Shown piece by piece: positions 1,600 to 52,560 of a stretch of 53,105 nt of DNA; position 1 is the stretch's first letter; each line of letters starts with the position of its first letter. The DNA is from Spirochaetota bacterium (GTDB lineage: Bacteria > Spirochaetota > Spirochaetia > Treponematales > UBA12059), in the NCBI GenBank assembly GCA_026398615.1, contig JAPLSN010000018.1, forward strand, positions 1-53,105. Direction: 5' to 3'. The notes below the pieces were generated by a model. It ran no database searches. It saw only the letters and a list, made by a program, of their open reading frames with translations, and had not been told where the DNA came from. Position numbers and translations under genes: made by a program.

Positions 1600-4500
1600 A
1601 TGAAAACGGCCGCCCGATCCGGTAAGCTCGCAATCGCATTCACGATCGCGATCGCGTCTGCAGCCGGGACGGCGGCATGGGAGGACGCGCGGACCCTCGT
1701 CTTCAAACCGTCGAAACCGCTTCCTTCCGGTGTCAGGTACAGGGCCGTCTTCGATTTCGAGCCCTTCGAGGGGAAACAGTCCTCGGGCAGGTACTTCACC
1801 TTCGGGTTCGAAACCGCGAAACCCTTCGTGTCCGTGTCCTTCGGCGCGCTCAGGGCATCCCGCTCGGGCGAGCTCGAGTTGCCGGGGACCCTGACCGCGA
1901 GCGACGCCGATTCCGGCGAACTCGTGGAGAAAGCGCTCGGTGCGAAACTGGGCGGAAAGGCGGCCGTGGTGTCCTGGAATCACGGGTCGGACGGCGTCCA
2001 TGGGTTCGTCGTCGGCGGTATCGTCCGCACGGCCTCGGAAGCCCGGCTCGTCGTCTCGTGGGACGGCGCCCCGCTCAAGGCCGCCGCCCGCGGGAAGGAA
2101 GTCTTCCGGGTCCCGGCAGCAGACGCCTTCGAGGTGCTCTCGGTAAGGCCGGGGCAGGGTTCCGACGACTGCGTGGAAGTGGCGTTCAGTTCCCCCCTCG
2201 ACCCCGCCCAGGATCTGCGCGGCCTCATCGGCATCGACGGGATGGAAGACCTGCGCTTCGAGACCGACGGAGGGCTCGTGCGGGTCTACGCGACCATGAC
2301 CTGGCCGGACAAGGCCAGGGTGCGCGTGGAGAAGGGCATCCGCGGGAAGGGAGGCGAGCGCCTCGAAGTCCCCGCCGCGGCGAACGTCGACATGAGCTGG
2401 AGCATCCCGGCCGTCCGCTTCGCGTCGAACGGCGTCATCCTCCCAAGCCGCGGCCTCGTCACGAATTCCCTCATGACGACGAAGGGGCCATCGATCCCCG
2501 TCGAGACCCTCAACCTGGCGGCGGTGGTCGTGGAAGTGTTCAGGGTCTACGGCGACAACATGCTCCAGTTCCTCCAGGTCAACGACCTCTCCGGGACCAA
2601 GGAGCTCGCCCGCGTCGGGGAACTCGTGTCCCGGAAGACGGTCGATCTCGGCTGGAAGGACGCGTGGAAGAACAAGTGGACGACCCACGAGCTCGACCTT
2701 TCCGATATCGTCAGGAAGTATCCCGACGGGATGTTCCAGGTCAGGCTGACCTTCGGCCGCTCGCACATCAGGTACATCTGCCCGAACGACCACGATTTCA
2801 GCGCCATGAAATTCCCCGAGCCCGCGGTCGTCGATCCGAACGACGACGACTCCAGCTACTGGGACTGGTCCGAAAGCAACGCCGAGATGGACTACGAGCA
2901 GGCGTACAACATGAGGACCGATCCCTGCCACCCGGCGTTCTACGTACCCATGTACGGCCACGACATCGCCGTCCGCAGGAACGTGCTCGTGTCGGATATC
3001 GGCGTGCAGGCGAAGCGCGACGTCGACGGCGCCTGGCACGTGACGGCAGCCAATCTCCGGACGGTCCAGCCGATCGTCGGGGCGAAGGTGTCGCTCTTCA
3101 ACTACCAGCAGCGCGAACTCGCGTCGGGGCTCACCGACGCCAAGGGCATGATCGTCCTCAAGTCCGGAGGTTCGCCCTTCGTGCTGGCCGTGCAGGCGGA
3201 CGTTCCCGTCGAGGGTGCGAAGGCCCCGGCGAAGCAGTACACGTGGATGCGCGTCGATCCGGCCCAGGCCCTCGCGGTCAGCCACTTCGACATCGGCGGG
3301 GAAAAGGCGGCGGGCGGCGTGAAGGGGCTCATCTACGGCGAGCGCGGCGTGTGGCGCCCCGGCGACGACATGAACCTCGTCTTCCTGCTTTTCGACCGCG
3401 AAAAGCGGATTCCCGCCGACCATCCCGTGATTTTCGAGCTCGAGAATCCCCAGGGCCGCGTCGTGCAGACCGCCTCGCTCGGGAAGGGTACCGGCGGCTT
3501 CTACAAGATCGACGCCAGGACGAACGCCGACGCCCCCACCGGCAACTACATTGCCCGCGTGAAGGTGGGCGACCGGGTGTTCGACCGCACCGTGAAGGTC
3601 GAGATGGTGATGCCGAACCGGCTCAAGCTGGTGCTCGACTACGGTGGCGGCGATTCGATCAAGGGCGGACTCGACGAACTGGGTCTCCAGGCATCGTGGC
3701 TGCACGGCGCCCCCGCGTCCGGGCTCAAGGCCGACGTTTCCGTGGTGTTCGGTTCCTCGAAGACCGAGTTCACCGCGTTCAAGGGCTATTCCTTCGACGA
3801 CGCGACGCGCTTCGTCAGCTCCGAGCGTTTCATCCTCTTCGACGACTACCTCGACAAGTCGGGCAAGGCCGTCGCGAGCGACTTCGAGATCGACGGCCTC
3901 GGGGACGCTCCCGGCAAGCTGACCGCGTACTTCCTGAGCCGCGTGTTCGAACCTTCGGGCGTCTTTTCGAGCGAACAGTTCTCGGTCGACTACCACCCCT
4001 ACGACCAGTACGTCGGCGTGAAGCCGCCGCAGGGCGACAAGCGCGGCATGCTGCTCACCGACCAGGACCAGGCGGTCGAGATCGCGCTCGTCGACGACGA
4101 CGGCAAGCCCGTGTCCTCCGGCAGGGTGGACATGGCGATCTACCAGATCCGCTGGCGATGGTGGTGGGAAAAGGGCGAGGAAAACCTGGCCGAGTACCAG
4201 AACGAAGTCTTCAACCACCTCGTCCAGAAGGGCACCACGACCGTCTCCCAGGGCAAGGGCGCGTGGAAGTTCCGCGTCGCCTATCCGTCATGGGGTCGCT
4301 ACCTGATCAGGGCCGTGGACAAGGCTTCCGGCCACGCGGCGACGAGCATCGTCTACGTCGACTGGCCGGGATGGGCCGGGCGCTCCAAGGGCGACTCGGG
4401 CGGATCGGCCTTCATGCTGTCCCTCTCCACCGACAAGACTTCCTACCGCGTCGGCGAGACCGCCACGGTGACCTTCCCCTCCAACGCGGACTCGAGGGCC

Positions 4501-41262: not shown

Positions 41263-42303
41263 TCATTGTTCCGCAAGGCCCCGCGCGCCATAGACTTTCA
41301 GCAACTCGTTGACGTCGGTCGTCTTGATGTCGAGGCCCCCGGAATCGCCGAAGGGCAGCAGGTAGATGGACTTCCCGACGAGGGCCTCGGCGATCTTCAT
41401 CTTGACCATGGTGTCGCCGCCGGCGCTGTTGAGGGCCTGCACCATCTTCTCGATGCCCTTGGCTTCCGCCATGCCTTCGGCTTCGATGGCCTTGGCGATC
41501 TTGCCCTGCTGTTCGTAGTAGGCGTCCGCCCCGATCCGCGCCTTCTCGAATTCCCCGTCTATGTCGGCCACCAGCTTGTTCACCTCTCCCTGGGCTTCCG
41601 CCATGCGCTGGCGGTATTCCTCCACCGTGGCGTTCGCTTCGGACTTGTAGCGCTCGGCGACCTGGTCCGCCACCTTCTTGTCCTCGATCGCCTGCTGATA
41701 GGCCGGGTTGAAGCGGTAGTCCTTGGGAAGCACGCTCTCGATGATCACGCCGTAGGGATTGAGCAGCTTGTTCAGAACGGCCTTGGCGTCCTCCGATTTC
41801 TGGGTCCGCTTGTCGGCGTTGTAGAAATCCTCGGTCGTCAGTTCCCCGAACAGGTCCCTCGTGATGTTGCGCGCCAGGGTCCTGACGACGTTCTCCTCGA
41901 TGTCCTTGTTGTTGTCCGCGATGTTGATCAGGATGTAGGGCGTCATCCTGGGATCGACGCGGTACGCGATGATGACGTCGAGGCTGATGTCGTTGCCGTC
42001 GATGGTCTTGAAGAGGAGGTCGTCCCGCTGTTTCCGCGAACCGGTGTCCGGGGCCACGGACATCTCGATGTTCTGCAGCTTGGTATCGAAGGTATGCCAC
42101 TCGTTGATGATCAGCGGGAAGAAATACGTGGCGCCCGGGGCGTACACGTCCTGCACCACGCCCTGCTTTTCGAAAGGCGACCACTTGATGACGCGGACCC
42201 CGACTTCGGTGGGCTTCGTGGAGTGCGGCGCGACGAGGACGAGCAGGAGCGCCGTCAGCGCGGCGATGATGACGATGATCGTGAAAATCCTGTTTGGTTT
42301 CAT
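41263..42303 (-). CDS. SPFH/band 7 domain protein, second of a pair
   Basis: A 346-residue protein with one N-terminal membrane segment (IFTIIVIIAALTALLLVLVA), an SPFH domain (TEVGVRVIKWSPF ... FKTIDGNDISLDVIIAYRVDP) and a long Ala/Glu/Lys-rich helical tail. It is a stomatin/prohibitin/HflC relative. Such proteins form large membrane-bound cages that organise lipids or proteases. It shares FGELTTEDFYN with its upstream partner (LGELTTEEFFN), so the two are diverged duplicates likely to assemble together. ATG 42303 has a GGGGGG run upstream. GTG 42321 would overlap the preceding stop as GTGA and is an equally possible start. A hairpin follows the gene. Confidence 0.88.
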   Translation of the reverse strand: MKPNRIFTIIVIIAALTALLLVLVAPHSTKPTEVGVRVIKWSPFEKQGVVQDVYAPGATYFFPLIINEWHTFDTKLQNIEMSVAPDTGSRKQRDDLLFKTIDGNDISLDVIIAYRVDPRMTPYILINIADNNKDIEENVVRTLARNITRDLFGELTTEDFYNADKRTQKSEDAKAVLNKLLNPYGVIIESVLPKDYRFNPAYQQAIEDKKVADQVAERYKSEANATVEEYRQRMAEAQGEVNKLVADIDGEFEKARIGADAYYEQQGKIAKAIEAEGMAEAKGIEKMVQALNSAGGDTMVKMKIAEALVGKSIYLLPFGDSGGLDIKTTDVNELLKVYGARGLAEQ

Positions 42304-42317
42304 GTTTGCGCCCCCCG

Positions 42318-43373
42318 TCACTTCACGCCGAACAGCCGGAGCGACTGCTCCAGATCGAGCGGATTGATGCCCGTCTTCCCGCTGGAGGACAGCATGATCA
42401 ATTCCAGCCCCTTGTACACCTTGGCCATTTCCAGTCCCACGAGATTCTTGGCGCCGCTCCTCTGGTAGGCGAGGTTCACCAGTTCGGTCCTCCTGGCCTC
42501 CGCGAGCTTGACCAGGAGGTCGCCCTCGGCGTGCTTGGTGCGCGTGTAGAGGTCCATGTCGGCCTGCCTCACGACGACGTAGGCGTTTCCCTCCTCGAGC
42601 TTCACCTTGAGGTTGGCTTCGCCTTCCTGCCTGACCTTGGAGACGATGGCCTCCTCGGCGGACGCCTTCGCCTTGGACTGGTTCGTGAAGACCAGCTGGT
42701 CCTTCAGTTTCTTCTCCTCGATGTTCTTCTGGATCTCGTCCGAGTACTTGAAGTAGCGGACGAGCACGTTCTCGACCGTGATGCCCATGGGAGTGAGCTC
42801 CGCGTTCAGCAGGTCCCTGGCCTTGGCCGCCTTCTGGACGCGCAGCGGGCTGTTGAAGAATTCCTCGGTGGTCAGTTCGCCCAGGGCTTCCTTGAGTTTG
42901 GATTCGGCCTTGGGGATGATGCCGTTCGATTCGTACAGCTTGCCGGGTCCGATCGTCGTGATCGTCTTGTACGGATCGCCGATGCGGTACAGGATGCTCA
43001 CGTCGACGTCGACGTAAAACCCGTCGGAGGTCTGGATGTGGGCGGCCTTGACCCGGCTCGCGTTGCTGGACGCGGATTCGGTGTAGTTGTTCAGCTCGAA
43101 CACCTGGAGGCTCCGGGGGAACTTGTGCATCATCTGCACGCCGAACGGAACGAGGAAGTGATACCCCGTTTCATACACCTTCTTCTGAAGTCCCGTATTG
43201 AGGCCGATGTTGATCTGCTTGATCCCGTATTCATAGGGCGCTATGTATACGACGAACATCCGCACGACGGTGACGAGCAGGAATGACCCGACGATGAAAA
43301 TCAGGGTGCCGTTCCTGATCTTCGTCGGGACCAGCGCGAACATACCCTTTATCATGGTACCGAGTTTGGCCAT
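42318..43373 (-). CDS. SPFH/band 7 domain protein, first of a pair
   Basis: A 351-residue protein with a membrane segment at about 22-46 (GTLIFIVGSFLLVTVVRMFVVYIAP), an SPFH domain (YEYGIKQINIGLNTG ... VDVDVSILYRIGDPYKT) and a C-terminal coiled-coil region rich in Lys, Ala and Glu. By analogy with HflK-HflC or prohibitin pairs, it probably forms hetero-oligomeric rings with the following gene product. No FtsH or NfeD-like protein is adjacent. GGAAAGGAG upstream of ATG 43373 is a good ribosome-binding site. It is divergent from the metal-transport operon. Confidence 0.88.
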   Translation of the reverse strand: MAKLGTMIKGMFALVPTKIRNGTLIFIVGSFLLVTVVRMFVVYIAPYEYGIKQINIGLNTGLQKKVYETGYHFLVPFGVQMMHKFPRSLQVFELNNYTESASSNASRVKAAHIQTSDGFYVDVDVSILYRIGDPYKTITTIGPGKLYESNGIIPKAESKLKEALGELTTEEFFNSPLRVQKAAKARDLLNAELTPMGITVENVLVRYFKYSDEIQKNIEEKKLKDQLVFTNQSKAKASAEEAIVSKVRQEGEANLKVKLEEGNAYVVVRQADMDLYTRTKHAEGDLLVKLAEARRTELVNLAYQRSGAKNLVGLEMAKVYKGLELIMLSSSGKTGINPLDLEQSLRLFGVK

Positions 43374-43505: not shown

Positions 43506-43534
43506 TTGCATTGATTTTCCGGTAAGGCTATATT
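43506..43534 (+). promoter_or_regulatory. Promoter of the metal-transport operon
   Basis: TTGCAT (43506-43511), exactly 17 bases, TATATT (43529-43534). Transcription should begin near 43541, leaving a leader of about 160 bases before the first main gene at 43705, much longer than elsewhere in this window. Confidence 0.6.
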
Positions 43535-43543
43535 GGGTTGTGC

Positions 43544-43672
43544 ATGTGCAGAGTACTCGTCATCATCGATACCAAAACCAACCTGAAAGGAGGTCAGAGC
43601 CCGTCCATGGACCCGTATCCAAGTAGACCCATACTGCCAATCCACGTACGCGGAGGCTCCGACCGCCAGTAG
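43544..43672 (+). CDS. Proline-rich leader-peptide ORF upstream of the MgtE-N/CBS gene
   Basis: A 42-codon frame begins with ATG 43544, about 3 bases from the predicted transcript start. An inner in-frame ATG at 43607 (with AAGGAGG at 43587-43593, a rather long 13-base spacing) would give 21 residues. The inner peptide begins MDPYPSRPILP. In the longer form, prolines are at residues 20, 24, 26, 29 and 32. The frame ends at TAG 43670-43672, 32 bases before the main gene. Its Pro-spaced start recalls the E. coli MgtL leader (MEPDPTPLP...), which controls mgtA by Mg2+-dependent ribosome destabilisation. A frame of this length could be open by chance, so this is a hypothesis. Confidence 0.4.
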   Translation: MCRVLVIIDTKTNLKGGQSPSMDPYPSRPILPIHVRGGSDRQ

Positions 43673-43699
43673 CCGGTTCCCCCCGCAATTCGGAGGGAA
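43592..43699 (+). promoter_or_regulatory. Structured leader with RBS-sequestering hairpin
   Basis: GGTCAGAGCC (43592-43601) can pair with GGCTCCGACC (43655-43664), 9 of 10 positions, closing a ~70-base domain. TTCCCCCCG (43677-43685) pairs with CGGAGGGAA (43691-43699), 8 of 9 positions, hiding the GGAGGG ribosome-binding site of the gene at 43705. GACCG (43661-43665) can alternatively pair with CGGTT (43674-43678), which excludes both stems. This has the layout of a translational switch. I do not see the conserved cores of the M-box or yybP-ykoY riboswitches. Confidence 0.5.
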
Positions 43700-43704
43700 T
43701 CGAA

Positions 43705-44943
43705 ATGTTCACGAAAACCGCCTTCTACTTCAGCGACATTCTTGGCGTCAAGGTTCTCGAGGAGGGCTTCGGCGTCGTTGGCCGCATCCGTGACTTCTAC
43801 GCTGACGTGTCCTCGCCCCGGCCCAGGATCGTCGCTGCCGTGGTCCGCAGGGGCAAGCAGGAGCGTACCATAGATTTCGCGCCTTGCCGGATGTCGGGCG
43901 TCGGACGGAAGCGCGTCATCGTGGTCCCGGAGGCCAGGGATCTCACGGCGCCGGCGGAAAACCACCTCTCCCTTGCCAGGAATCTCCTCGACCGGCAGAT
44001 CGTCGACGTGGACGGAAGGAAGCTCGTCCGCGTCAACGATCTCGTCCTCGATTCGGCCGCCTTGGGGGCGTTCCTCGTGGCCGTCGACGTCGGCATCGAG
44101 GGCCTCCTGCGACGTCTCGGCGTGGCGTGCTTCTTCAACGCGGCGTTCCGCCTTTTCGGGAAGCGCCTTCCGCCCAGGCTCATCCTCTGGAGCGAGGTCG
44201 AGGCGGTCGACTTCCCGAGCAGCCATATAAAGCTCTCCACCGCGTATTCCAAGCTCGGCACCTTCCACCCGTCCGAACTCGCCGACATACTCGAGGATCT
44301 CGACAGGCATTCCCAGGTTGCCCTCTTCTCGGCTCTCGACGAAGAGCGCGCTGCCGATGTGCTCGAGGAACTCAAGCCCGTTGCCCAGGTCGGCCTTCTC
44401 GAAAACCTCTCCGAGGAAAAGGCCGCGGACGTCCTCGAGAGGATGCCCGCCGATGAGGTCGCGGATATCCTGGACGAGCTCAAGCGCGAGAAGGCGGAAC
44501 GCCTCCTCGACGAGATGGAGACCAAGTCATCGGCCGAGGTCCGGAACCTCATGCTCTATCCGGACAACGTTGTGGGTTCCCTCATGTCCACGGACTACAT
44601 CTTCTTCAACCAGTCCATGACCGTCGGCGACGCCCTCCTGGAACTCCGGAAGCTCAAGCCCGAGGCCGAGACCATCTACTACGTCTACGTCCTCGACGCG
44701 CGCGGCCGTTATGTGGCGACCGTATCGCTCCGGGACATCGTCGTGTCGGAGTTCGATACCCGCCTCGGCGAGATCATGAACTCGGGCGTGCCTCCCTTCA
44801 AGGACAGGGACGATCTTTTTTCGATCGCCGATCTCGTCCTCAAGTACAAGCTCCATGCCGTGCCCGTCGTGAACGATGACGCGCGCATGGTAGGCACCAT
44901 CGTCATAGAAGACGTGCTCGAACACGTCATGGGCAAGCGCTAG
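43705..44943 (+). CDS. Soluble PRC-barrel / MgtE-N / CBS-pair protein without MgtE channel
   Basis: A 412-residue protein. Two PRC-barrel-like units come first (GVKVLEEGFGVVGRIRDFYAD; LLDRQIVDVDGRKLVRVNDLVLD). An MgtE N-terminal superhelix follows (FHPSELADILEDLD, then repeats LSEEKAADVLERMPADEVADIL), and then a CBS pair (VGSLMSTDYIFFN ... AVPVVNDDARMVGTIVIEDVLEHV). In full-length MgtE these cytosolic parts sense Mg2+ and gate the channel, but here the five-helix channel domain is absent and the protein ends after the CBS pair. With the next gene an NRAMP-type transporter 14 bases on, it likely regulates that transporter by metal or nucleotide binding. The ribosome-binding site lies in a hairpin. 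Confidence 0.87.
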   Translation: MFTKTAFYFSDILGVKVLEEGFGVVGRIRDFYADVSSPRPRIVAAVVRRGKQERTIDFAPCRMSGVGRKRVIVVPEARDLTAPAENHLSLARNLLDRQIVDVDGRKLVRVNDLVLDSAALGAFLVAVDVGIEGLLRRLGVACFFNAAFRLFGKRLPPRLILWSEVEAVDFPSSHIKLSTAYSKLGTFHPSELADILEDLDRHSQVALFSALDEERAADVLEELKPVAQVGLLENLSEEKAADVLERMPADEVADILDELKREKAERLLDEMETKSSAEVRNLMLYPDNVVGSLMSTDYIFFNQSMTVGDALLELRKLKPEAETIYYVYVLDARGRYVATVSLRDIVVSEFDTRLGEIMNSGVPPFKDRDDLFSIADLVLKYKLHAVPVVNDDARMVGTIVIEDVLEHVMGKR

Positions 44944-44957
44944 GCGCGGGCAGCCCC

Positions 44958-46208
44958 ATGCGGAAGAAAATCAGGGAATCCGGGATCATCCGGAACATCC
45001 TCATGTTCCTCGCCGTGCTCGGCCCGGGAATCATCACCGGCTCGGTGGACAACGACGCGGGCGGCATCACGACCTACTCGGTCGCGGGCGCGACCTACGG
45101 CTACAATATCCTCTGGACCCTCGTTCCCGCCCTCGTCGTCCTCATCGTCATCCAGGAGATGAACGCGCGCATGGGCATCGTGACGGGCAAGGGGCTCGCC
45201 GACCTCATACGCGAGAACGGCGGCGTCAAGGTGACTTTCTTCATCTTCGTGGGCCTGATCCTTGCGGACATCGGCAACACGACCACGGAGTTCGCGGGCG
45301 TCGCCGGCTCGATGGAAGCGCTCGGCGTGAGCAAGTATATCGCCGTACCCCTCTCGGCGGTCGCGGTGTGGCTGCTCGTCGTGAAGGGGAGCTACAAATC
45401 GTCGGAAAAGATATTCCTGGTCTTTTCGCTCTTTCTCCTGTCCTACGTCGTGTCGGCCATCCTCGGGAAGCCGGACTGGGGCGCCATCGGCCACGCGATG
45501 GTGCACCCGGACGCCACGCCGGATTTCCGCTACATCACGATGGTGGTCGGCATCGTCGGCACCACGATAGCGCCGTGGATGCAGTTCTACATGCAGTCAT
45601 CCGTCATCGAGAAAGGGCTCCGCATCGAGAACTACAGGTACACGGTCTGGGACGTGGTCATCGGCGCCTGCATCACGGTCGTGGTCGCCTTCTTCATCAT
45701 CGTGGCCTGCGCCGCCACCCTCCACGTGAACGGTATCCGGATCGATGAAGCCAAGGATGCGGCCATCGCCCTCGGTCCCCTCGCCGGCAGGGCGGCATCC
45801 GTGGTTTTCGCCGCGGGCCTCTTCGTGGCTTCGATCTTCTCCGCCACGATCCTCCCCCTCGCCACCGCCTTCTACGTCTGCGAAGCTTTCGGCTTCGAGG
45901 CCGGCATCGACAAGAAGTGGAATGAAGCGCCCCAGTTCTACGCGCTTTTCACGGCCATCATCATCGTGTCCGTGGGCATCATCCTCCTGCCCCGCGCGCC
46001 CCTCATCGAGATCACCATCTGGTCCCAGGTCATCAACGGCGTCCTGCTGCCCGTCGTCCTCGTCAGCATGCTGCTCATCATCAACAAGAGAGAGGTGATG
46101 GGCGACTACGTGAACGGGAAAATCGGCAACGCGGTGGGCTGGGCGACGGCGGCAATCCTCCTCGGGCTGAACCTGCTCTTCTTCGTGATGCCGTTCGTGA
46201 AAACCTGA
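44958..46208 (+). CDS. NRAMP-family divalent metal transporter with altered metal site
   Basis: A 416-residue polytopic membrane protein (about 11 helices) of the NRAMP/MntH fold. The TM1 motif that is DPGN in MntH reads DAGG here (Asp33 kept, Asn replaced by Gly36). The TM6 motif that is MPH reads A-P-W (Ala205, Pro206, Trp207). The TM6 Met gives NRAMPs their preference for Mn/Fe/Cd. Its loss is shared with the NRAMP-related magnesium transporters described from Eggerthella and Clostridia. Together with the MgtE-type sensor upstream, this suggests Mg2+ (or Mg2+/Mn2+) uptake. It sits 14 bases after the sensor gene with no clear Shine-Dalgarno, so it is probably translationally coupled. Confidence 0.88.
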   Translation: MRKKIRESGIIRNILMFLAVLGPGIITGSVDNDAGGITTYSVAGATYGYNILWTLVPALVVLIVIQEMNARMGIVTGKGLADLIRENGGVKVTFFIFVGLILADIGNTTTEFAGVAGSMEALGVSKYIAVPLSAVAVWLLVVKGSYKSSEKIFLVFSLFLLSYVVSAILGKPDWGAIGHAMVHPDATPDFRYITMVVGIVGTTIAPWMQFYMQSSVIEKGLRIENYRYTVWDVVIGACITVVVAFFIIVACAATLHVNGIRIDEAKDAAIALGPLAGRAASVVFAAGLFVASIFSATILPLATAFYVCEAFGFEAGIDKKWNEAPQFYALFTAIIIVSVGIILLPRAPLIEITIWSQVINGVLLPVVLVSMLLIINKREVMGDYVNGKIGNAVGWATAAILLGLNLLFFVMPFVKT

Positions 46209-46282: not shown

Positions 46283-48832
46283 TCATCTGCTGAATTCCAG
46301 GACGATCCTCGTACCCTTTTCCCGCTCTATCCGGATGGTGCCTTCCAGCTGTTCAACCAGCATCTTGACGAGCATCAATCCGAATCCCGTCGAATTTTCG
46401 AAAGTGACCGATTCCGGCATTCCGTTGCCATTGTCCTGAACGAGGATGGCCACCCGATCATCCATGAGTGTCGCGGATACCGTGATCAGGCCATCGTCTC
46501 CATCGTCAAAAGCATACTTCATGATGTTGGTCAGAAGCTCGTTGATGATTATCCCGAGCGGCTGCAGCCGCTTTGCTTCCAAAACGAAATCATCAATCCG
46601 TTTTTCGATTTTCACCGATTCGCCCTTGGGGAAGTTCGACACGATTTGATCGACCAGGGCCGGCAGATACTCCCTGACCGACATCTCCGTGAAATCAACG
46701 GACTCGTACAGCTTGTCGTAGAGCACCATCATGCTCCGCACGCGGCTTCCGGCATCCTCAAGCGATTCAATGGCCGAAGGATCCTTCAATGTTCGGCCAT
46801 GAATACTCAGAAGGCTGTTGATGGTGTTCATGTTGTTCTTGATGCGGTGATGCACTTCCTTGAGGATGAGTTCCTTTTCCGCAAGGAGGGTTTTGATTTC
46901 ATCTTCCGCGTTCTTGCGTTCCGTGATGTCATGAACAGCGGTAAAACGGTATTGTTTATCCTGTATATGAATATTTTCTGACGATAGCACTACGTGTTTG
47001 ATATCGCCGTTCTTCGCTCTCAATTCAGTTTCCGCATTAATCACATTTCCATCACTATCGGATTTCAGTAATATGGAATTTCGGGCAACGGGCGTCAGGA
47101 TTCCCAAATCCATGGCAGTTTTCCCCATTACTTCATCCTTATCAAATCCGAACAGAGCGTAAAATGCATTATTTACTTCCACATATTTTCCGGTAGCCAG
47201 ATCACTTAGACCACAGGCGGAAGGATTGATATGAAATACTTTTGAAAACTTTTCCTCTGACAATTGGATGCGTGAGATATCTTTCGTAACTCCGAAGATA
47301 ACCGGCTTATCATCCCATATTCCCCGTTTGACCCTTGTTTCGACCGGAATCTGAACACCGGATTTCGTAATGACGGGAACAGGGCAAAACTCCGTCAAGC
47401 CTCTCAGCATTTCATCGACGATTCTACCGGCTTCAGCTCGGCGTCCGGCCGGATGGACCATGAGAACCGATTTCCCGCAAAGTTCTTCTCTTGTGTAGCC
47501 GAGACGGTCAATAACGGTAGTATTTGTATGAATAATATTCCCTTTTTCATCGAGAACAAAAAGGAATTCGTCAATTGTGTTGAAGAAGGTTTCAAAATTC
47601 TGTCGGGTCTGCGCCAATACCTCTTCCACCCGCTTGCGTTCGGTGATATCAACCAAACCGCCATAGAGCAAGGGGCTCCCTGGAGTCCGGGGTTCTGAAA
47701 CACATTCAGCGAAGGATGCGATCCAAACGATGCCGCCGTTCCTTCGGCGGATGCGAAACTCGCATGAATCCTGCGAACCCGGGGCCAGGCCGATGACGTG
47801 TTCTTCAAATACAGCTTGATCCTCCTCGACGACCAGAAAGCGCCAACAGCCTTGCGCCTTGATCTCCTCACTGGAGTAGCCGGTGATGCGGTCTGCCGCG
47901 CCCGTGATCCACTCAATCGAAAAACAGCCATCTTCCTTGGTGCGACAGGAATAGGCCATATCCGAAGTCATCGCCGAGACCCGTTGGAAACGCTCCTCGC
48001 TCTCCCGCGTCACCTTCTCCGCCAGCTTGCGCTCGGTGATGTCACGAATGCTCTCAATCACGCCGATAATGTTGCCAAACCGGTCGTTCAGGGGCGAGAC
48101 CTTGGCACTGACCCATGCACCCTTGTCGTTGTAGAGGGCGTTGCAGAACACTTCCGCCATGAGGGTGTCACCTTCGCGGGTGATGTGGGGATATTTGGCA
48201 GTGATTTCATCTTGGTTCTTGAAGACCATATCCATCAAATTGGGGCGCGCCTCTCCATAAAACGGGATGGTGTAGGCGTAGTCGCCTTTACCGATCATCT
48301 CAGTAGCAGGAATGCCCGTCATTTTCTCGATAGCCTTGTTCCAGATGATGACATGCTTTTCACTATCTATTGCCAGAGTGGCATCTGGCAGGAATTCGAT
48401 GATGTCTGTCAGTCGTCTTTGGCTCTCCTGCAATGCTTCCCCTTTTGCTTTCTCATCTTGCTTTGTCTTAAACAGCTTGAACGCCATCTTGATCGAAGCA
48501 TCGAGAACGGTGATTGAGGATGATTTCACGACATAGCCATAAGAAGTTATCTTTTCCGTCTTCTCTACGACTTCACGTTCGCTATGGTTTGAGACAAATA
48601 CTATGGGAATATCGTGATCTTTCAGGATGAGTTCAGCGGCCTGGGTTCCATCGATGCCTTTCCCCAGATTGATGTCCATGAGGATGAGGTCGATAACAAG
48701 AGTCTTATTGACAGCCTCTACAGCCTTTTCGCCCGTAGTCGCGGTGATGACAGAATACCCGTATTTCTCAAGGGTCATTTTTTCGGACAGGGCTATGAGC
48801 ACTTCGTCTTCCACGAGGAGGATGGTTTTCAT
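46283..48832 (-). CDS. REC-PAS(x4)-HisKA_2 hybrid sensor kinase
   Basis: An 849-residue soluble signalling protein. An N-terminal receiver domain (residues 1-120; phospho-acceptor Asp53 in LMDINLG, Thr/Ser and Lys switch residues present) is followed by four PAS domains, each ending in a DITER-like PAC motif. The C-terminus is a HisKA_2-type kinase (LKEVHHRIKNN, His661/662; NELLTNIMKYAF N-box; DNGNG; GFGLMLVKML). There is no membrane segment, so the stimuli are cytosolic, and no output domain. The phosphate is presumably passed to a separate regulator or to its own REC. The ATG overlaps the upstream kinase's TGA as ATGA. Base composition is visibly more A+T-rich than the rest of the window. 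Confidence 0.93.
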   Translation of the reverse strand: MKTILLVEDEVLIALSEKMTLEKYGYSVITATTGEKAVEAVNKTLVIDLILMDINLGKGIDGTQAAELILKDHDIPIVFVSNHSEREVVEKTEKITSYGYVVKSSSITVLDASIKMAFKLFKTKQDEKAKGEALQESQRRLTDIIEFLPDATLAIDSEKHVIIWNKAIEKMTGIPATEMIGKGDYAYTIPFYGEARPNLMDMVFKNQDEITAKYPHITREGDTLMAEVFCNALYNDKGAWVSAKVSPLNDRFGNIIGVIESIRDITERKLAEKVTRESEERFQRVSAMTSDMAYSCRTKEDGCFSIEWITGAADRITGYSSEEIKAQGCWRFLVVEEDQAVFEEHVIGLAPGSQDSCEFRIRRRNGGIVWIASFAECVSEPRTPGSPLLYGGLVDITERKRVEEVLAQTRQNFETFFNTIDEFLFVLDEKGNIIHTNTTVIDRLGYTREELCGKSVLMVHPAGRRAEAGRIVDEMLRGLTEFCPVPVITKSGVQIPVETRVKRGIWDDKPVIFGVTKDISRIQLSEEKFSKVFHINPSACGLSDLATGKYVEVNNAFYALFGFDKDEVMGKTAMDLGILTPVARNSILLKSDSDGNVINAETELRAKNGDIKHVVLSSENIHIQDKQYRFTAVHDITERKNAEDEIKTLLAEKELILKEVHHRIKNNMNTINSLLSIHGRTLKDPSAIESLEDAGSRVRSMMVLYDKLYESVDFTEMSVREYLPALVDQIVSNFPKGESVKIEKRIDDFVLEAKRLQPLGIIINELLTNIMKYAFDDGDDGLITVSATLMDDRVAILVQDNGNGMPESVTFENSTGFGLMLVKMLVEQLEGTIRIEREKGTRIVLEFSR
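48470..48830. repeat. 361-bp direct repeat, copy 1 (receiver domain)
   Basis: It matches 52165-52525 at an offset of 3,695 bases, with six mismatches that I can count. It covers almost the whole receiver domain of the 849-residue kinase, from its second codon. Confidence 0.92.
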
Positions 48833-51800
48833 ATCTCAAACTCCAGAACAACTTTCGTTCCATGTCCCCGTTCAATTCGGATTTTCCCTTCCAACTGCTC
48901 CGTCAGCATTTTCACGAGCATGAGTCCAAACCCGGCGGAGTTCTCAAAAGAAACCGATCCAGGCATGCCGTTTCCATTGTCCTGAATGATGATGGAAACA
49001 TGGCTGTCCGCAATCGTTGCGGATACCGCGATCAAACCCTCGTCTCTGCCTGTAAACGCATACTTCATGATGTTGGTCAAGAGCTCATTGATGATAATTC
49101 CGAGCAGCTGCAAGCGTTTCGCATCCAAAACAAAATCCTGAATCCTTTTTTCGATTCTTACCGATGTGCTGTTGGGGAAGTTTGCCACAATCTCATCCAT
49201 CAAGGCTGGCAGGTACTTCTCAAGCGATATATCGTTGAAGCTGGCAGACTGAAACAGTTTATCATAGAGAACCATCATGCTCTGAACGCGGCTTCCGGCG
49301 TCTTTCAGTGCTTCAACTGCCGAAGGATCCTTCAATGTTCCAGCCTGAATACTCAGAAGGCTGTTTATAGTGCTCATGTTGTTCTTGATGCGGTGGTGAA
49401 CTTCTTTGAGGATGAGGTCTTTTTCCGCAAGGAGGGACATGATTTTCTGTTCTGAGAGCTTGCGTTCGGTGATGTCGGTGATTATGGATTCAAGGAAAAT
49501 CTTGGCACCGATCTTGATGATCAGAGAGGAATCATGAACCAATTTCCGTTTTCCATCGGAGCATTGTATTTCCGCGCTCCTTGTCTCCCCCGACCAGTCC
49601 ATCCTTGATTCAAGTATGGTCCTCAGATCTTTGCGCAGTTGTTCCCCCAGTTCGGGTGTCGCTCGTTCAGCAGGAGTCAACTGCAACTGGATTTCCCAAA
49701 GCGGTCTGCCGATTGTGTCGGTCCGTGGTAACCCCGTGATTGACTCCATGGACATGTTCCATGTAGTAATGATCCCGTTCTCGTCCGTAGTCACTATACC
49801 ATCACGCGATTTTTCTATGAGTCCGCGATATTTGGCTTCGCTCTCCCGGAGCGCATCCTCTGCACACGTGCGCTCGGTGATGTCTTCCACAAAGCCTTCA
49901 AGAAAACTCGGGTTCTCGGGGAGTGCTCGGATCAGCAGGTTCGCCGTGATATGGGTTCCATCCCTTCTTCGGTACTCTTGTTCAGTCCCTATCCAGCTCC
50001 CGAGAGTTCTCCAAGCATCGTTTACCAATTTATCTCGTTCAGACGGTCGATCGAAGAAAGCCTCTGAAGCAGAAGATTGGTTGACAACCCGCTTCAATTC
50101 CTCCGCTGACGAGTAACCCATGATGCGGGCATATTCAGCATTGACATGAATGATCTTGCCCTCTACGGTAGAATAGAAAATCCCTATGGGAGCATTCTCA
50201 AACAGACTGCGCTGACGCGCCTCGCTCTCCCGCAGAGCTTCTTCCGCTACCTTGCGTTCGGTAATGTCAGTGTGCGTACCGAACATTCTCAATGGCTTCC
50301 TGTCTTTATCCCATTCGATGACCTTACCTCGCCCATGTATCCATACCCAATTTCCATTTTTATGCCTCATTCTGGATTCAAAAGAATAGAATTCCGTCTC
50401 TCCGCGCATGTGTTTCATCAGAAACTCATTGGTATTTGCCCTGTCATCAGGGTGCTTCAACCCCATCCATGCCTCAAAACTGACGGGCTGTAATTCATTC
50501 AGGGAATAGCCAAGTATTTCCGCCGATATGCAATCGACTGAATACTCTCCTGTCTGGATATTCCATTCCCAGGTACCCGCGTTCGTTCCGATGAGGACAT
50601 TATGAAGTCTTTCTTTTTCTCTTTTCAGCAAGTCATCTGCTTTCTTGCGTTCGGTGATGTCTCTGGCGACGGACATTGTAACCTGATTGTCATCCAGTTG
50701 AAACAGGACAGTGGAAACCTCCACGGGAATCCTGTGGCCGTCTTTGGAAAGGTGTTCTGTTTCAAACAACACCTGTTTGTTTTTCAGCAACTTTTCGATA
50801 ATATCAGGCATCTGTCCTGAACGGTCAGGTGAATCAATATCTTGAGGCGACAGCTTGAGCATTTCCTCCTTCGTATAGCCCAACCTTTCACATGCGACGT
50901 CATTGACCTGTATGAAGTTTGTCGGCTGACCGTCCTGCCCCATCAGGTGGACAGCTATTGCGTCTCTTCCGCTGTTGAAGAGCATGCGGAATCGAACCTC
51001 GCTCTCCCGCAGTGCCTCTTCCGCCTTCTTGCGTTCGGTGATGTCCTCTCCCGAACTGAAAAGACCGACAATCGTTCCATCCTTATTCTCTAGGATGGCA
51101 TTGTGCCAGTAAATTGTTTTCCTTTCTCCTGTTTTCGTGATCACTTCATTGAAATTTGCTTCAATACCATGATTTTCTCCGTTCATCAATGTACCGACGA
51201 ATTGACGAGTTGCCTTTCTCCTTTCTTCAGGCAAGCAGGTATCGAACCAATTCTTGCCGATAAGCTCTGGCGCGTCATATCCAAGTATTCTATGCCCGCT
51301 CTCATTCAGGAGTGTAATGATACCTTTGTCATCAAAGGAAAGTATAATCTCGGCGGCTACATTCAACAGCATTTCAGCCATTTCTTTACTCTCTCGCAGT
51401 TTACTCTCAATCTGTTTGATTTCGGTCGTTTCCTGGGAAATTATCTGGATTCCAAATATTTTCCCGGTGATATCCGCAATTCGAGTAAAGGTGCTCAAAA
51501 AGTATTTATTGCCAGATGGGAGCGGAACCATATCATCATAGACGACTGGAATAGTAGATAGAGCGGCTTTTTTTATTCTATCATGATATGAATCAGCCCC
51601 GCTTTTTGGGAATATCTCATAAATGGATTTACCGATGAAATCCTCCGGAACACCATTCATATGTTTTGCGGCAAGGTTATTGTAGGACAGAACAATCCCA
51701 TCAAGTGAGAAATAGCCGATACCAATTCCGGCATTCTCATGCAATAATCTGTATTTCTCTTCGTTCTCTCGCAGTTCATCTGCCGCTTTCTTGCGGTCAG

Positions 51801-52560
51801 TAATATCACGAGAAAGATAAATGAAATGCCGTTTTGAAATATCACTGACCATGCGGGAAACTGAAATCTCGAACCAGCGTTTTCCGAGAGGTACAGACAA
51901 TTCATACTGTTTGCCGATAGAATATTCTTTTTCATTAGCCTCTTTCACAGCAGACATAATGATTTCCGTCGCCTCGGAGGGAAGAACGTCATAAATATTT
52001 TTTCCAATCCAACTATCCGTCAACGGCTTGTATAGAAGTTCGGTATGTGGAGCATGAACATCAAAGTAGGTTCCGTCCAGGTCAATCTCAAACAACAGGT
52101 CGGGAAGAGCGTCAAGAGTAGCTTCCAATTTATTATTGACAAACTTGGATTTTTCTTTCTCATCAAACAGCTTGAACGCCATCTTGATCGAAGCATCGAG
52201 AACGGTGATTGAGGATGATTTCACGACATAGCCATAAGAAGTTATCTTTTCCGTCTTCTCTACGACTTCACGTTCGCTATGGTTTGAGGCAAATACTATG
52301 GGAATATCGTGGTCTTTCAGGATGAGTTCAGCGGCTTGGGTTCCATCGATGCCTTTCCCCAGATTGATGTCCATGAGGATGAGGTCGATATCAAGAGCCT
52401 TATTGACAGCCTCTACAGCCTTTTCGCCCGTAGTCGCGGTGATGACAGAATACCCGTATTTCTCAAGGGTCATTTTTTCGGACAGGGCTATGAGTACTTC
52501 GTCTTCCACGAGGAGGATGGTTTTCCTGTTTTCACCGTTCAATAATCGCCCCCTCGCCAT
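48829..52560 (-). CDS. REC-PAS(x7)-HisKA_2 hybrid sensor kinase
   Basis: A 1,243-residue paralogue of the downstream kinase. A receiver domain (phospho-Asp in LILMDINLG) is followed by seven PAS domains separated by DITERKKAEEALRESE-like linkers, then a HisKA_2 domain (EVHHRIKNN, His1055/1056) and HATPase (NELLTNIMKYAF, DNGNG, GFGLM). No membrane segment is present. The kinase cores of the two proteins are equal in length (189 residues from the first acceptor His) and closely similar. The REC-coding DNA is almost identical. ATG 52560 lacks a ribosome-binding site. TTG 52542, with GAGGGGG 6 bases upstream, may be the true start. ATGA coupling to the next kinase makes them one operon. Confidence 0.92.
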   Translation of the reverse strand: MARGRLLNGENRKTILLVEDEVLIALSEKMTLEKYGYSVITATTGEKAVEAVNKALDIDLILMDINLGKGIDGTQAAELILKDHDIPIVFASNHSEREVVEKTEKITSYGYVVKSSSITVLDASIKMAFKLFDEKEKSKFVNNKLEATLDALPDLLFEIDLDGTYFDVHAPHTELLYKPLTDSWIGKNIYDVLPSEATEIIMSAVKEANEKEYSIGKQYELSVPLGKRWFEISVSRMVSDISKRHFIYLSRDITDRKKAADELRENEEKYRLLHENAGIGIGYFSLDGIVLSYNNLAAKHMNGVPEDFIGKSIYEIFPKSGADSYHDRIKKAALSTIPVVYDDMVPLPSGNKYFLSTFTRIADITGKIFGIQIISQETTEIKQIESKLRESKEMAEMLLNVAAEIILSFDDKGIITLLNESGHRILGYDAPELIGKNWFDTCLPEERRKATRQFVGTLMNGENHGIEANFNEVITKTGERKTIYWHNAILENKDGTIVGLFSSGEDITERKKAEEALRESEVRFRMLFNSGRDAIAVHLMGQDGQPTNFIQVNDVACERLGYTKEEMLKLSPQDIDSPDRSGQMPDIIEKLLKNKQVLFETEHLSKDGHRIPVEVSTVLFQLDDNQVTMSVARDITERKKADDLLKREKERLHNVLIGTNAGTWEWNIQTGEYSVDCISAEILGYSLNELQPVSFEAWMGLKHPDDRANTNEFLMKHMRGETEFYSFESRMRHKNGNWVWIHGRGKVIEWDKDRKPLRMFGTHTDITERKVAEEALRESEARQRSLFENAPIGIFYSTVEGKIIHVNAEYARIMGYSSAEELKRVVNQSSASEAFFDRPSERDKLVNDAWRTLGSWIGTEQEYRRRDGTHITANLLIRALPENPSFLEGFVEDITERTCAEDALRESEAKYRGLIEKSRDGIVTTDENGIITTWNMSMESITGLPRTDTIGRPLWEIQLQLTPAERATPELGEQLRKDLRTILESRMDWSGETRSAEIQCSDGKRKLVHDSSLIIKIGAKIFLESIITDITERKLSEQKIMSLLAEKDLILKEVHHRIKNNMSTINSLLSIQAGTLKDPSAVEALKDAGSRVQSMMVLYDKLFQSASFNDISLEKYLPALMDEIVANFPNSTSVRIEKRIQDFVLDAKRLQLLGIIINELLTNIMKYAFTGRDEGLIAVSATIADSHVSIIIQDNGNGMPGSVSFENSAGFGLMLVKMLTEQLEGKIRIERGHGTKVVLEFEI
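52165..52525. repeat. 361-bp direct repeat, copy 2 (receiver domain)
   Basis: Partner of 48470-48830. The kinase cores downstream of each copy are also related but clearly more diverged, so the REC segments were duplicated or converted more recently. Confidence 0.92.

Follow-up and report, generated by a model that had tools for sequence, protein, structure and literature searches.

A short frame containing several prolines lies before a metal-transport operon in this genome, and the locus raises the question of whether translation of that frame decides if the operon is expressed. The window, the whole 53,105-nucleotide stretch of Spirochaetota DNA that was analyzed, carries the two genes of the operon on its forward strand. 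The first (43705–44943, +) encodes a PRC-barrel/MgtE_N/CBS protein, a cytosolic MgtE-like partner (Pfam MgtE_N 6e-25, CBS 1e-14, PRC 5e-5), and the second (44958–46208, +) a Nramp-related magnesium transporter, or NRMT (Pfam Nramp 1e-96; DxxG/TxxA signature). NRMT proteins have DxxG in TM1 and TxxA/T in TM6, replacing DxxN and A/CxxM (PMC8806188). The window protein met this test, with DNDAGG in TM1 and TTIAPW in TM6. A preliminary description of the locus had named Mg2+ or Mn2+ as the natural signal; because the window Nramp carries the Mg2+-transporter signature, Mg2+ is favored and Mn2+ is less likely. One MgtE-linked Nramp, that of A. capsulatum (an outgroup member), carried mainly Mn2+ (PMC4072509).

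The surroundings of the operon were also noted. Two adjacent Band_7/HflK-like genes (41263–43373, −) are divergent from it, and on its other side two large, similar, adjacent proteins that look like tandem duplicates are encoded (46283–52560, −), both running from an N-terminal response-regulator receiver through several PAS-like repeats to a C-terminal histidine-kinase region.

Parts of the window leader

A candidate promoter, TTGCAT-17-TATATT, was read from the sequence at 43506–43534 (+). Checked base by base, TTGCAT occupies 43506–43511 and TATATT 43529–43534, with a 17-nt spacer, but to call this promoter good, as had been done, was generous: its −35 agrees with the consensus at only 3/6 positions and is weak, and the candidate was absent from a strict consensus scan. 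The transcript is predicted to start near 43541. The leader ORF (43607–43672, +), MDPYPSRPILPIHVRGGSDRQ, encodes 21 amino acids between an ATG at 43607 and a TAG stop at 43670–43672, and ends 32 nt 5′ of the main ATG at 43705. A putative Shine-Dalgarno (SD) sequence for it, AAAGGAGG (43586–43593, +), was likewise read from the letters, at a long spacing of 13 nt from the leader ATG. Codons 2–5 (43610–43621, +), Asp-Pro-Tyr-Pro, are the core conserved in the relatives described below, with Asp2 and Pro5 as the invariant positions, and are the proposed site of ribosome drop-off.

Around and after this frame the RNA can be divided into four segments. Segment 1 (43592–43601, +), to which the leader SD belongs, is the 5′ arm of a stem hiding that SD, and its partner is GGCTCCGACC (43655–43664, +). 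Segment 2, the anti-anti-SD (GCGGAGG, 43650–43656, +), is formed by the last codons of the leader ORF and is predicted to fold with part of segment 3 before the main SD is made. Segment 3, the anti-SD, is TTCCCCCCGC (43677–43686, +), and segment 4 (43691–43699, +) is the main-gene SD, CGGAGGGAA, which segment 3 sequesters in the OFF form. The architecture drawn in the preliminary description was thus confirmed, from the short frame to the hairpin that masks the ribosome-binding site (RBS) (43677–43685/43691–43699, 8/9 pairs), the longer segment-1 stem (9/10 pairs) and an alternative pairing that excludes both, GCGG-a-GG at 43650–43656 with CCCCGC at 43681–43686.

The whole-leader fold of the window was unexceptional (z −1.26); its anti-SD:SD duplex (z −3.9) and its leader-SD stem (1.6% of shuffles as good) were beyond chance. 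An exact DNA search of the genome collection with the leader core gave no match. A loose leader pattern, which matches this locus at 43589–43620, was not specific when searched in the window's own genome (10 matches vs 2 for the reversed pattern).

Conservation of the leader peptide

To place the frame among its relatives, about 85,000 species genomes were scanned with a protein profile, orthologues of the MgtE_N protein were obtained at 79 loci, and the regions upstream of these were read. There were 75 testable loci, the window included, and the criterion was ATG-[GAN]-x-x-CCN at ≤250 nt upstream. A frame of the form M-[D/E]-x-x-P was present upstream in 58/75, from Spirochaetota, Bacteroidota and Clostridia/Desulfosporosinus, compared with a mean of 0.76 (maximum 3) in dinucleotide shuffles, 1 on the opposite strand and 3/138 in tiles farther upstream. 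On this comparison of sequences, it is the orthologues that make the window leader frame significant. Two of the 58 are doubtful, as one coincides with the main-gene start (L048) and the other overlaps the called gene (L057), and both were kept out of the fold tests; two frames with one extra codon (L056, MDESEP; L059, MDEGEP) were not counted. When frames were not selected on proline, Pro5 was found in 54/62 ATG-Asp2 frames and in 11/156 ATG frames without Asp2 (Fisher P=3e-31).

The leaders are varied beyond this core (e.g., MDEGPASILF in Prolixibacteraceae; MDDDPANILI and MDDYPANII, each followed by its stop, in Bacteroidales; MDTDPDGR in Desulfosporosinus; MDSGP, MDIGPYGGR and MESGPYGGR in Clostridium; MDAGPGS in Spirochaetaceae). 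At L040 the leader, MDPYPARNNSVIIP and a stop, has the same first five residues as that of the window (MDPYP). In most leaders proline occurs only once, and Pro-Pro is absent. A likeness to the proline spacing of MgtL had been suggested for the window frame, and while Pro5 is indeed conserved, together with Asp2, the P3/P5/P8/P11 spacing is not kept. With Pro5 the sole proline retained, the MgtL-like spacing was dropped as the key feature.

Within Bacteroidota an 18-nt signature, ATGGAYGANNNNCCNGCG, occurred 22 times in 21 genomes, and 20 of these occurrences were this leader, so that in those genomes the leader belongs to the MgtE_N operon. Of the remaining two matches, one had a stop codon inside and one started another frame. 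One contig (genome G897) carries two MgtE_N operons (L134 and L044) on opposite strands, separated by about 6 kb; both have an MDDDPAIRNLV leader of their own, and both leaders are among the 20. Operon neighbors differ between loci (e.g., a cation-efflux-like gene at L002), which indicates that the leader travels with the operon and not with the neighborhood.

Exceptions were also observed. Among the orthologues found, the closest (L121, 79% identical) is located 3′ of another gene and lacks a leader, so loss of the promoter-proximal position can be accompanied by loss of the leader. L122 has no MDxxP, and a different acidic, proline-rich frame, MPDSDHASPEPLKPSP, is present instead; in this spirochaete orthologue (L122/L032) the SD-preceded frame, MPDSDHASPEPLKPSPCKPRADGFAG followed by a stop, is acidic and proline-rich like MgtL, and the sensor may have been replaced here independently. 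A Bacillota MgtE_N gene (L046) is preceded by a TTG-started frame, MQIEEEPADTRL..., an acidic-proline leader of slightly different form. Separately, our first reading of the window region was that of a structured RNA without a kept frame, based on a 2-nt gap in the pairwise alignment of the window with L002. That reading was ruled out by the wider set and by L123 (MDAGPGSPHDIQVH), in which the M-D-x-x-P frame is retained.

Codon usage in the 58 leaders indicated what is being conserved. Pro5 was encoded by CCT in 34, CCG in 17, CCC in 4 and CCA in 3, position 2 by GAC in 46, GAT in 8, GAA in 3 and GAG in 1 (Glu, therefore, in 4), and all four codons were in use for Gly4. At codons 2 and 5 the entropy of the third positions was 0.9 and 1.4 bits, respectively, vs 0–0.2 at the first two positions. 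The frame is thus kept at the amino-acid level with synonymous codon changes, and this variation at Asp2 and Pro5 shows that it is under selection as a peptide. Two biases were seen alongside. Asp2 was GAC in 47/55 although GAT is commoner downstream (16 GAC expected), and Ala6 in Bacteroidota leaders was the rare GCG in 36/37 (e.g., L074 3912–3914), with 8% expected from the downstream genes; where Thr6 is present in Bacteroidota leaders it is ACG. The codon-6 bias is not explained by the peptide alone and may reflect slow decoding of an NCG codon immediately behind Pro5, or else a constraint at the nucleotide level there.

A pointer to the signal came from known RNA families. M-boxes (RF00380) have been reported before MgtE_N-NRMT operons, in a text without mention of a leader peptide (PMC4072509). 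In our set an M-box lay 5′ of the leader in 13/13 Firmicutes leaders (L034, L039, L073, L086, L099, L101–L108), and none was found at the Bacteroidota loci scanned or at spirochaete loci. Clostridium ljungdahlii is one example of a host that combines M-box and leader. The Firmicutes M-boxes may be taken as an independent indication of Mg2+. At L073 (Clostridium sp. DSM 17811) an intrinsic terminator (3830–3851) was observed between M-box and leader ORF, an arrangement that would place two Mg2+ controls in series. In the window there was no M-box match at the gathering score, and none in its leader at E up to 10; nor did the window or L002 leaders match any other Rfam family at gathering or permissive thresholds. 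None of the known riboswitch classes matched the window.

These data bear on two readings in which the leader is not a peptide sensor of Mg2+. One is that it senses charged tRNA-Pro or slow elongation, by amino-acid attenuation or EF-P-dependent proline stalling. Pro5 is invariant in the set, four of the first 11 codons of the window frame encode proline, and Salmonella mgtL and mgtP do respond to Pro codons and EF-P (PMC6460261). Most leaders, however, offer only their one proline, sensing of tRNA-Pro leaves the equally invariant acidic position 2 unexplained, and the frames are associated with Mg2+ importers and M-boxes; we consider this reading unlikely. The other is a structured, metal-binding regulatory RNA, a new riboswitch-like element in which the frame is incidental. 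It could account for the nucleotides around the start that are common to the window, L002 and L123 (CCGTCYATGGAC...CCARGTAG) and for the constraint beyond the amino acid at Ala6 and Asp2, but it sits poorly with codons 2, 4 and 5 that vary per the genetic code across phyla, with the peptide motif and three-segment architecture being all that the phyla have in common, and with the lack of an Rfam match. It is, in our view, very unlikely.

Competing helices before the main gene

Two mutually exclusive helices, 2:3 (anti-anti-SD with anti-SD) and 3:4 (anti-SD with SD), are found between frame and main gene, and both can form in the window. For relatives from each of the three groups, folding predicts that the RNA 3′ of codon 6 forms a single hairpin, 2:3, as long as the main SD is not yet transcribed. 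A ribosome positioned on the leader stop would change this, leaving the 3′ part of the hairpin to pair with the SD (3:4). At every locus the leader stop is overlapped or abutted by the 5′ arm of 2:3, so a ribosome finishing the leader passes over or covers that arm.

Both competing helices, 2:3 and 3:4, covary in 24 aligned Bacteroidota sequences. Paired cells made up 82% for helix 2:3, where 9/13 pairs showed two-sided changes, and 90% for helix 3:4, where 4/8 did; the pairing of both collapsed on sliding by 1–3 columns. RNAalifold recovered the SD helix from this alignment and did not recover the 2:3 helix, which it missed because of indels; helix 2:3 was for this reason tested as a named structure. 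Relative to shuffles, the mean z over the set was −2.4 for 2:3 and −2.6 for 3:4, and the window values were −1.0 and −3.9, respectively. In the nearest leaders, L002/L033 and L123, segment 2 ACGCGG and segment 3 CCGC are kept while their surroundings differ. The long stem of the window has counterparts of different sequence in these two other spirochaete leaders, giving three spirochaete leaders with a segment-1 (1:2) stem, as in mgtQ, that hides the leader's own SD. No segment 1 was noticed in Bacteroidota leaders, for which no systematic search was made. A TAnnTTTG element was present about 28–38 nt before the leader ATG in 29/58 leaders, and based on this element the Bacteroidota leaders appear to start close to their promoter.

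Predicted exposure of the SD was greater on drop-off than with a ribosome at the stop (+0.07, shuffles −0.03; P=9e-5); reversal beyond 0.3 occurred at no locus. At equilibrium, SD accessibility in the ON and OFF states was 0.19 vs 0.12 overall and 0.20 vs 0.16 in the window, where the SD is mostly paired both ways. A purely thermodynamic switch is not claimed, given how small the overall difference is. A co-transcriptional, kinetic choice is likelier for the same reason. In the window, with its weak helix 2:3 and largely paired SD, only a kinetic switch would work.

The position of the window stop brings in another reading, translational coupling, in which a terminating leader ribosome melts the RBS hairpin and re-initiation raises expression of the main gene without any sensing. 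The stop of the window ORF comes only after segment 2, 4 nt before segment 3 and thus before the RBS hairpin, so that with the main start only 32 nt away a ribosome would reach in. In most relatives the stop is 55–75 nt upstream, which is too far, with a conserved anti-anti-SD helix in between, and coupling would leave M-D-x-x-P unexplained; it is held to be highly improbable. That the window frame is a chance frame in a family that is real elsewhere is hardly credible, for although the nearest orthologue lacks a leader and chance alone would give M-[D/E]-x-x-P in ~1% of loci (0.76/75), the frame is before the right gene at the right distance with an SD, aligns locally with the L002 and L123 leaders, shares its first five residues with L040, and has the same 2:3 and 3:4 segments.

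A possible magnesium attenuator

Leaders of the MgtL/MgtQ type abort translation at low Mg2+, which requires acidic residues and is countered by bL31 or EttA. The family described here met three tests of this type: a short ORF lies within the untranslated leader of a Mg2+-transporter gene, it has an N-terminal acidic residue and a proline selected as peptide, and mutually exclusive structures overlap it, their gating of the main gene being inferred. The intergenic position of MgtQ, between mgtC and mgtB, is not reproduced, as the leader precedes the first gene of the MgtE_N-NRMT operon. Overall, sequence comparison shows that the peptide is selected and that the Mg2+-transporter operon is preceded by a three-segment RNA whose two helices compete. 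By analogy, we regard an MgtL/MgtQ-like attenuator as the best explanation and a probable one, with the drop-off, the Mg2+ response and the switch all inferred.

Under this attenuator, a ribosome at low Mg2+ would be destabilized on the N-terminal acidic residue and proline and would drop off around codon 5. Segment 2 (43650–43656) would then be free to capture the anti-SD (43681–43686), exposing the SD of the MgtE_N-NRMT operon (ON). With sufficient Mg2+ the leader would be finished, segment 2 masked, and the anti-SD:SD helix (43677–43685/43691–43699) closed, turning the importer OFF. In the three spirochaete leaders with a stem over the leader SD, untranslated RNA would be expected to be OFF too, as in mgtQ. 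ON at low Mg2+ suits an importer, although the sign is inferred. A helix that hides the SD suggests a translational output rather than Rho-dependent termination.

The preliminary description had supposed that ribosome progress through the proline codons decides the state of the RBS hairpin. The core of that idea, that leader translation makes the decision, is supported and withstood the refuting conditions set for it, in that the frame is kept, the competing stems covary and no known riboswitch matches the window. Ribosome destabilization by an acidic residue plus proline fits better than stalling at proline codons, since conservation falls on Asp2 and Pro5 and just one proline occurs in most relatives. 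Several points weigh against the attenuator. There are no expression or ribosome data behind the Mg2+ response; the conserved N-terminal core of the window leader has one acidic residue, so destabilization could be weak; L121 is without a leader and L122 has a different frame. In addition, a terminating ribosome in the window could open the RBS hairpin, giving the opposite sign.

The closest mechanistic analogue is Salmonella mgtQ, which is translational, more than mgtL, which is Rho-dependent. MgtQ, before mgtB, is also encoded by a short ORF with Asp2, a proline, acidic residues and a strong SD, and its stems 1:2, 2:3 and 3:4, the last of which hides the RBS of a Mg2+ transporter, act in translational control, with Asp2/Glu5 and these stems controlling the mgtB RBS (PMC8092293). 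It differs in being 8 aa long, in lying between mgtC and mgtB inside an operon, and in controlling a P-type ATPase, and it has been reported only for proteobacteria, mainly enterobacteria, and Brucella (PMC8092293). The window family, found in three other phyla, stands instead at the head (5′ end) of an MgtE_N-NRMT operon and has its proline at codon 5; in its Bacteroidota leaders the naked RNA is predicted to favor 2:3 (ON). MgtL, the mgtA leader of E. coli and Salmonella, likewise has an N-terminal acidic residue and prolines, and when Mg2+ is low its incomplete translation switches on a Mg2+ importer (IRD; Chadani 2017, described in PMC11282234). MgtL acts by Rho-dependent termination and has alternating prolines at 3, 5, 7 and 9 (PMC6460261), whereas in the window family an SD-sequestering hairpin is the likely output, only Pro5 is invariant, and no sequence homology has been demonstrated. 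The Mg2+-dependent stability of the ribosome is known to act as a sensor for E. coli MgtL and probably does so for Salmonella MgtQ.

Other leaders are less similar. CorL, the corA leader, is a Mg2+-transporter uORF with a single proline and with translation inverse to transporter expression, but it has a UUG start, is Rho-dependent, and is described in E. coli and Salmonella (PMC11552253). The M-box regulates the same MgtE_N-NRMT operons in Clostridia (PMC4072509), but as an RNA aptamer acting on a terminator, and where present it is upstream of the leader ORF. In M. tuberculosis, the pe20 M-box is followed by a conserved small ORF, uORF2/Rv1805A, which has a universally conserved proline and precedes Mg2+-uptake genes; this proline is at position 7, however, the peptide is mycobacteria-specific and of unknown role with no destabilization proposed, and the genes are different (PMC12810186). 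A literature search, from which most subscription papers were outside coverage, found no leader peptide described for NRMT operons, in agreement with the preliminary description, and no M-[D/E]-x-x-P-type leader family described beyond the enterobacterial cases and Brucella.

We lean toward a broader hypothesis, in which M-[D/E]-x-x-P leaders are widespread, ancient nascent-peptide sensors of Mg2+ that act by intrinsic ribosome destabilization in at least three non-enterobacterial phyla. In Clostridia/Desulfosporosinus, Mg2+ would then be read twice, by the M-box aptamer at transcription and by the ribosome at translation, and in Bacteroidota the GCG after Pro5 may time the drop-off. The M-box/leader tandem poses the question of why two physically different Mg2+ sensors are on one mRNA. 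The family points to residues that matter (Asp2, Pro5) and supplies natural variants of them, and, if the hypothesis is true, the natural test sequences rise from a handful to dozens. It also indicates a likely Mg2+ role for many NRMT operons without an M-box, for which the metal was previously uncertain. If true for the NRMT operons of Bacteroidota, Clostridia and Spirochaetota, ribosome stability would be a general bacterial readout of Mg2+.
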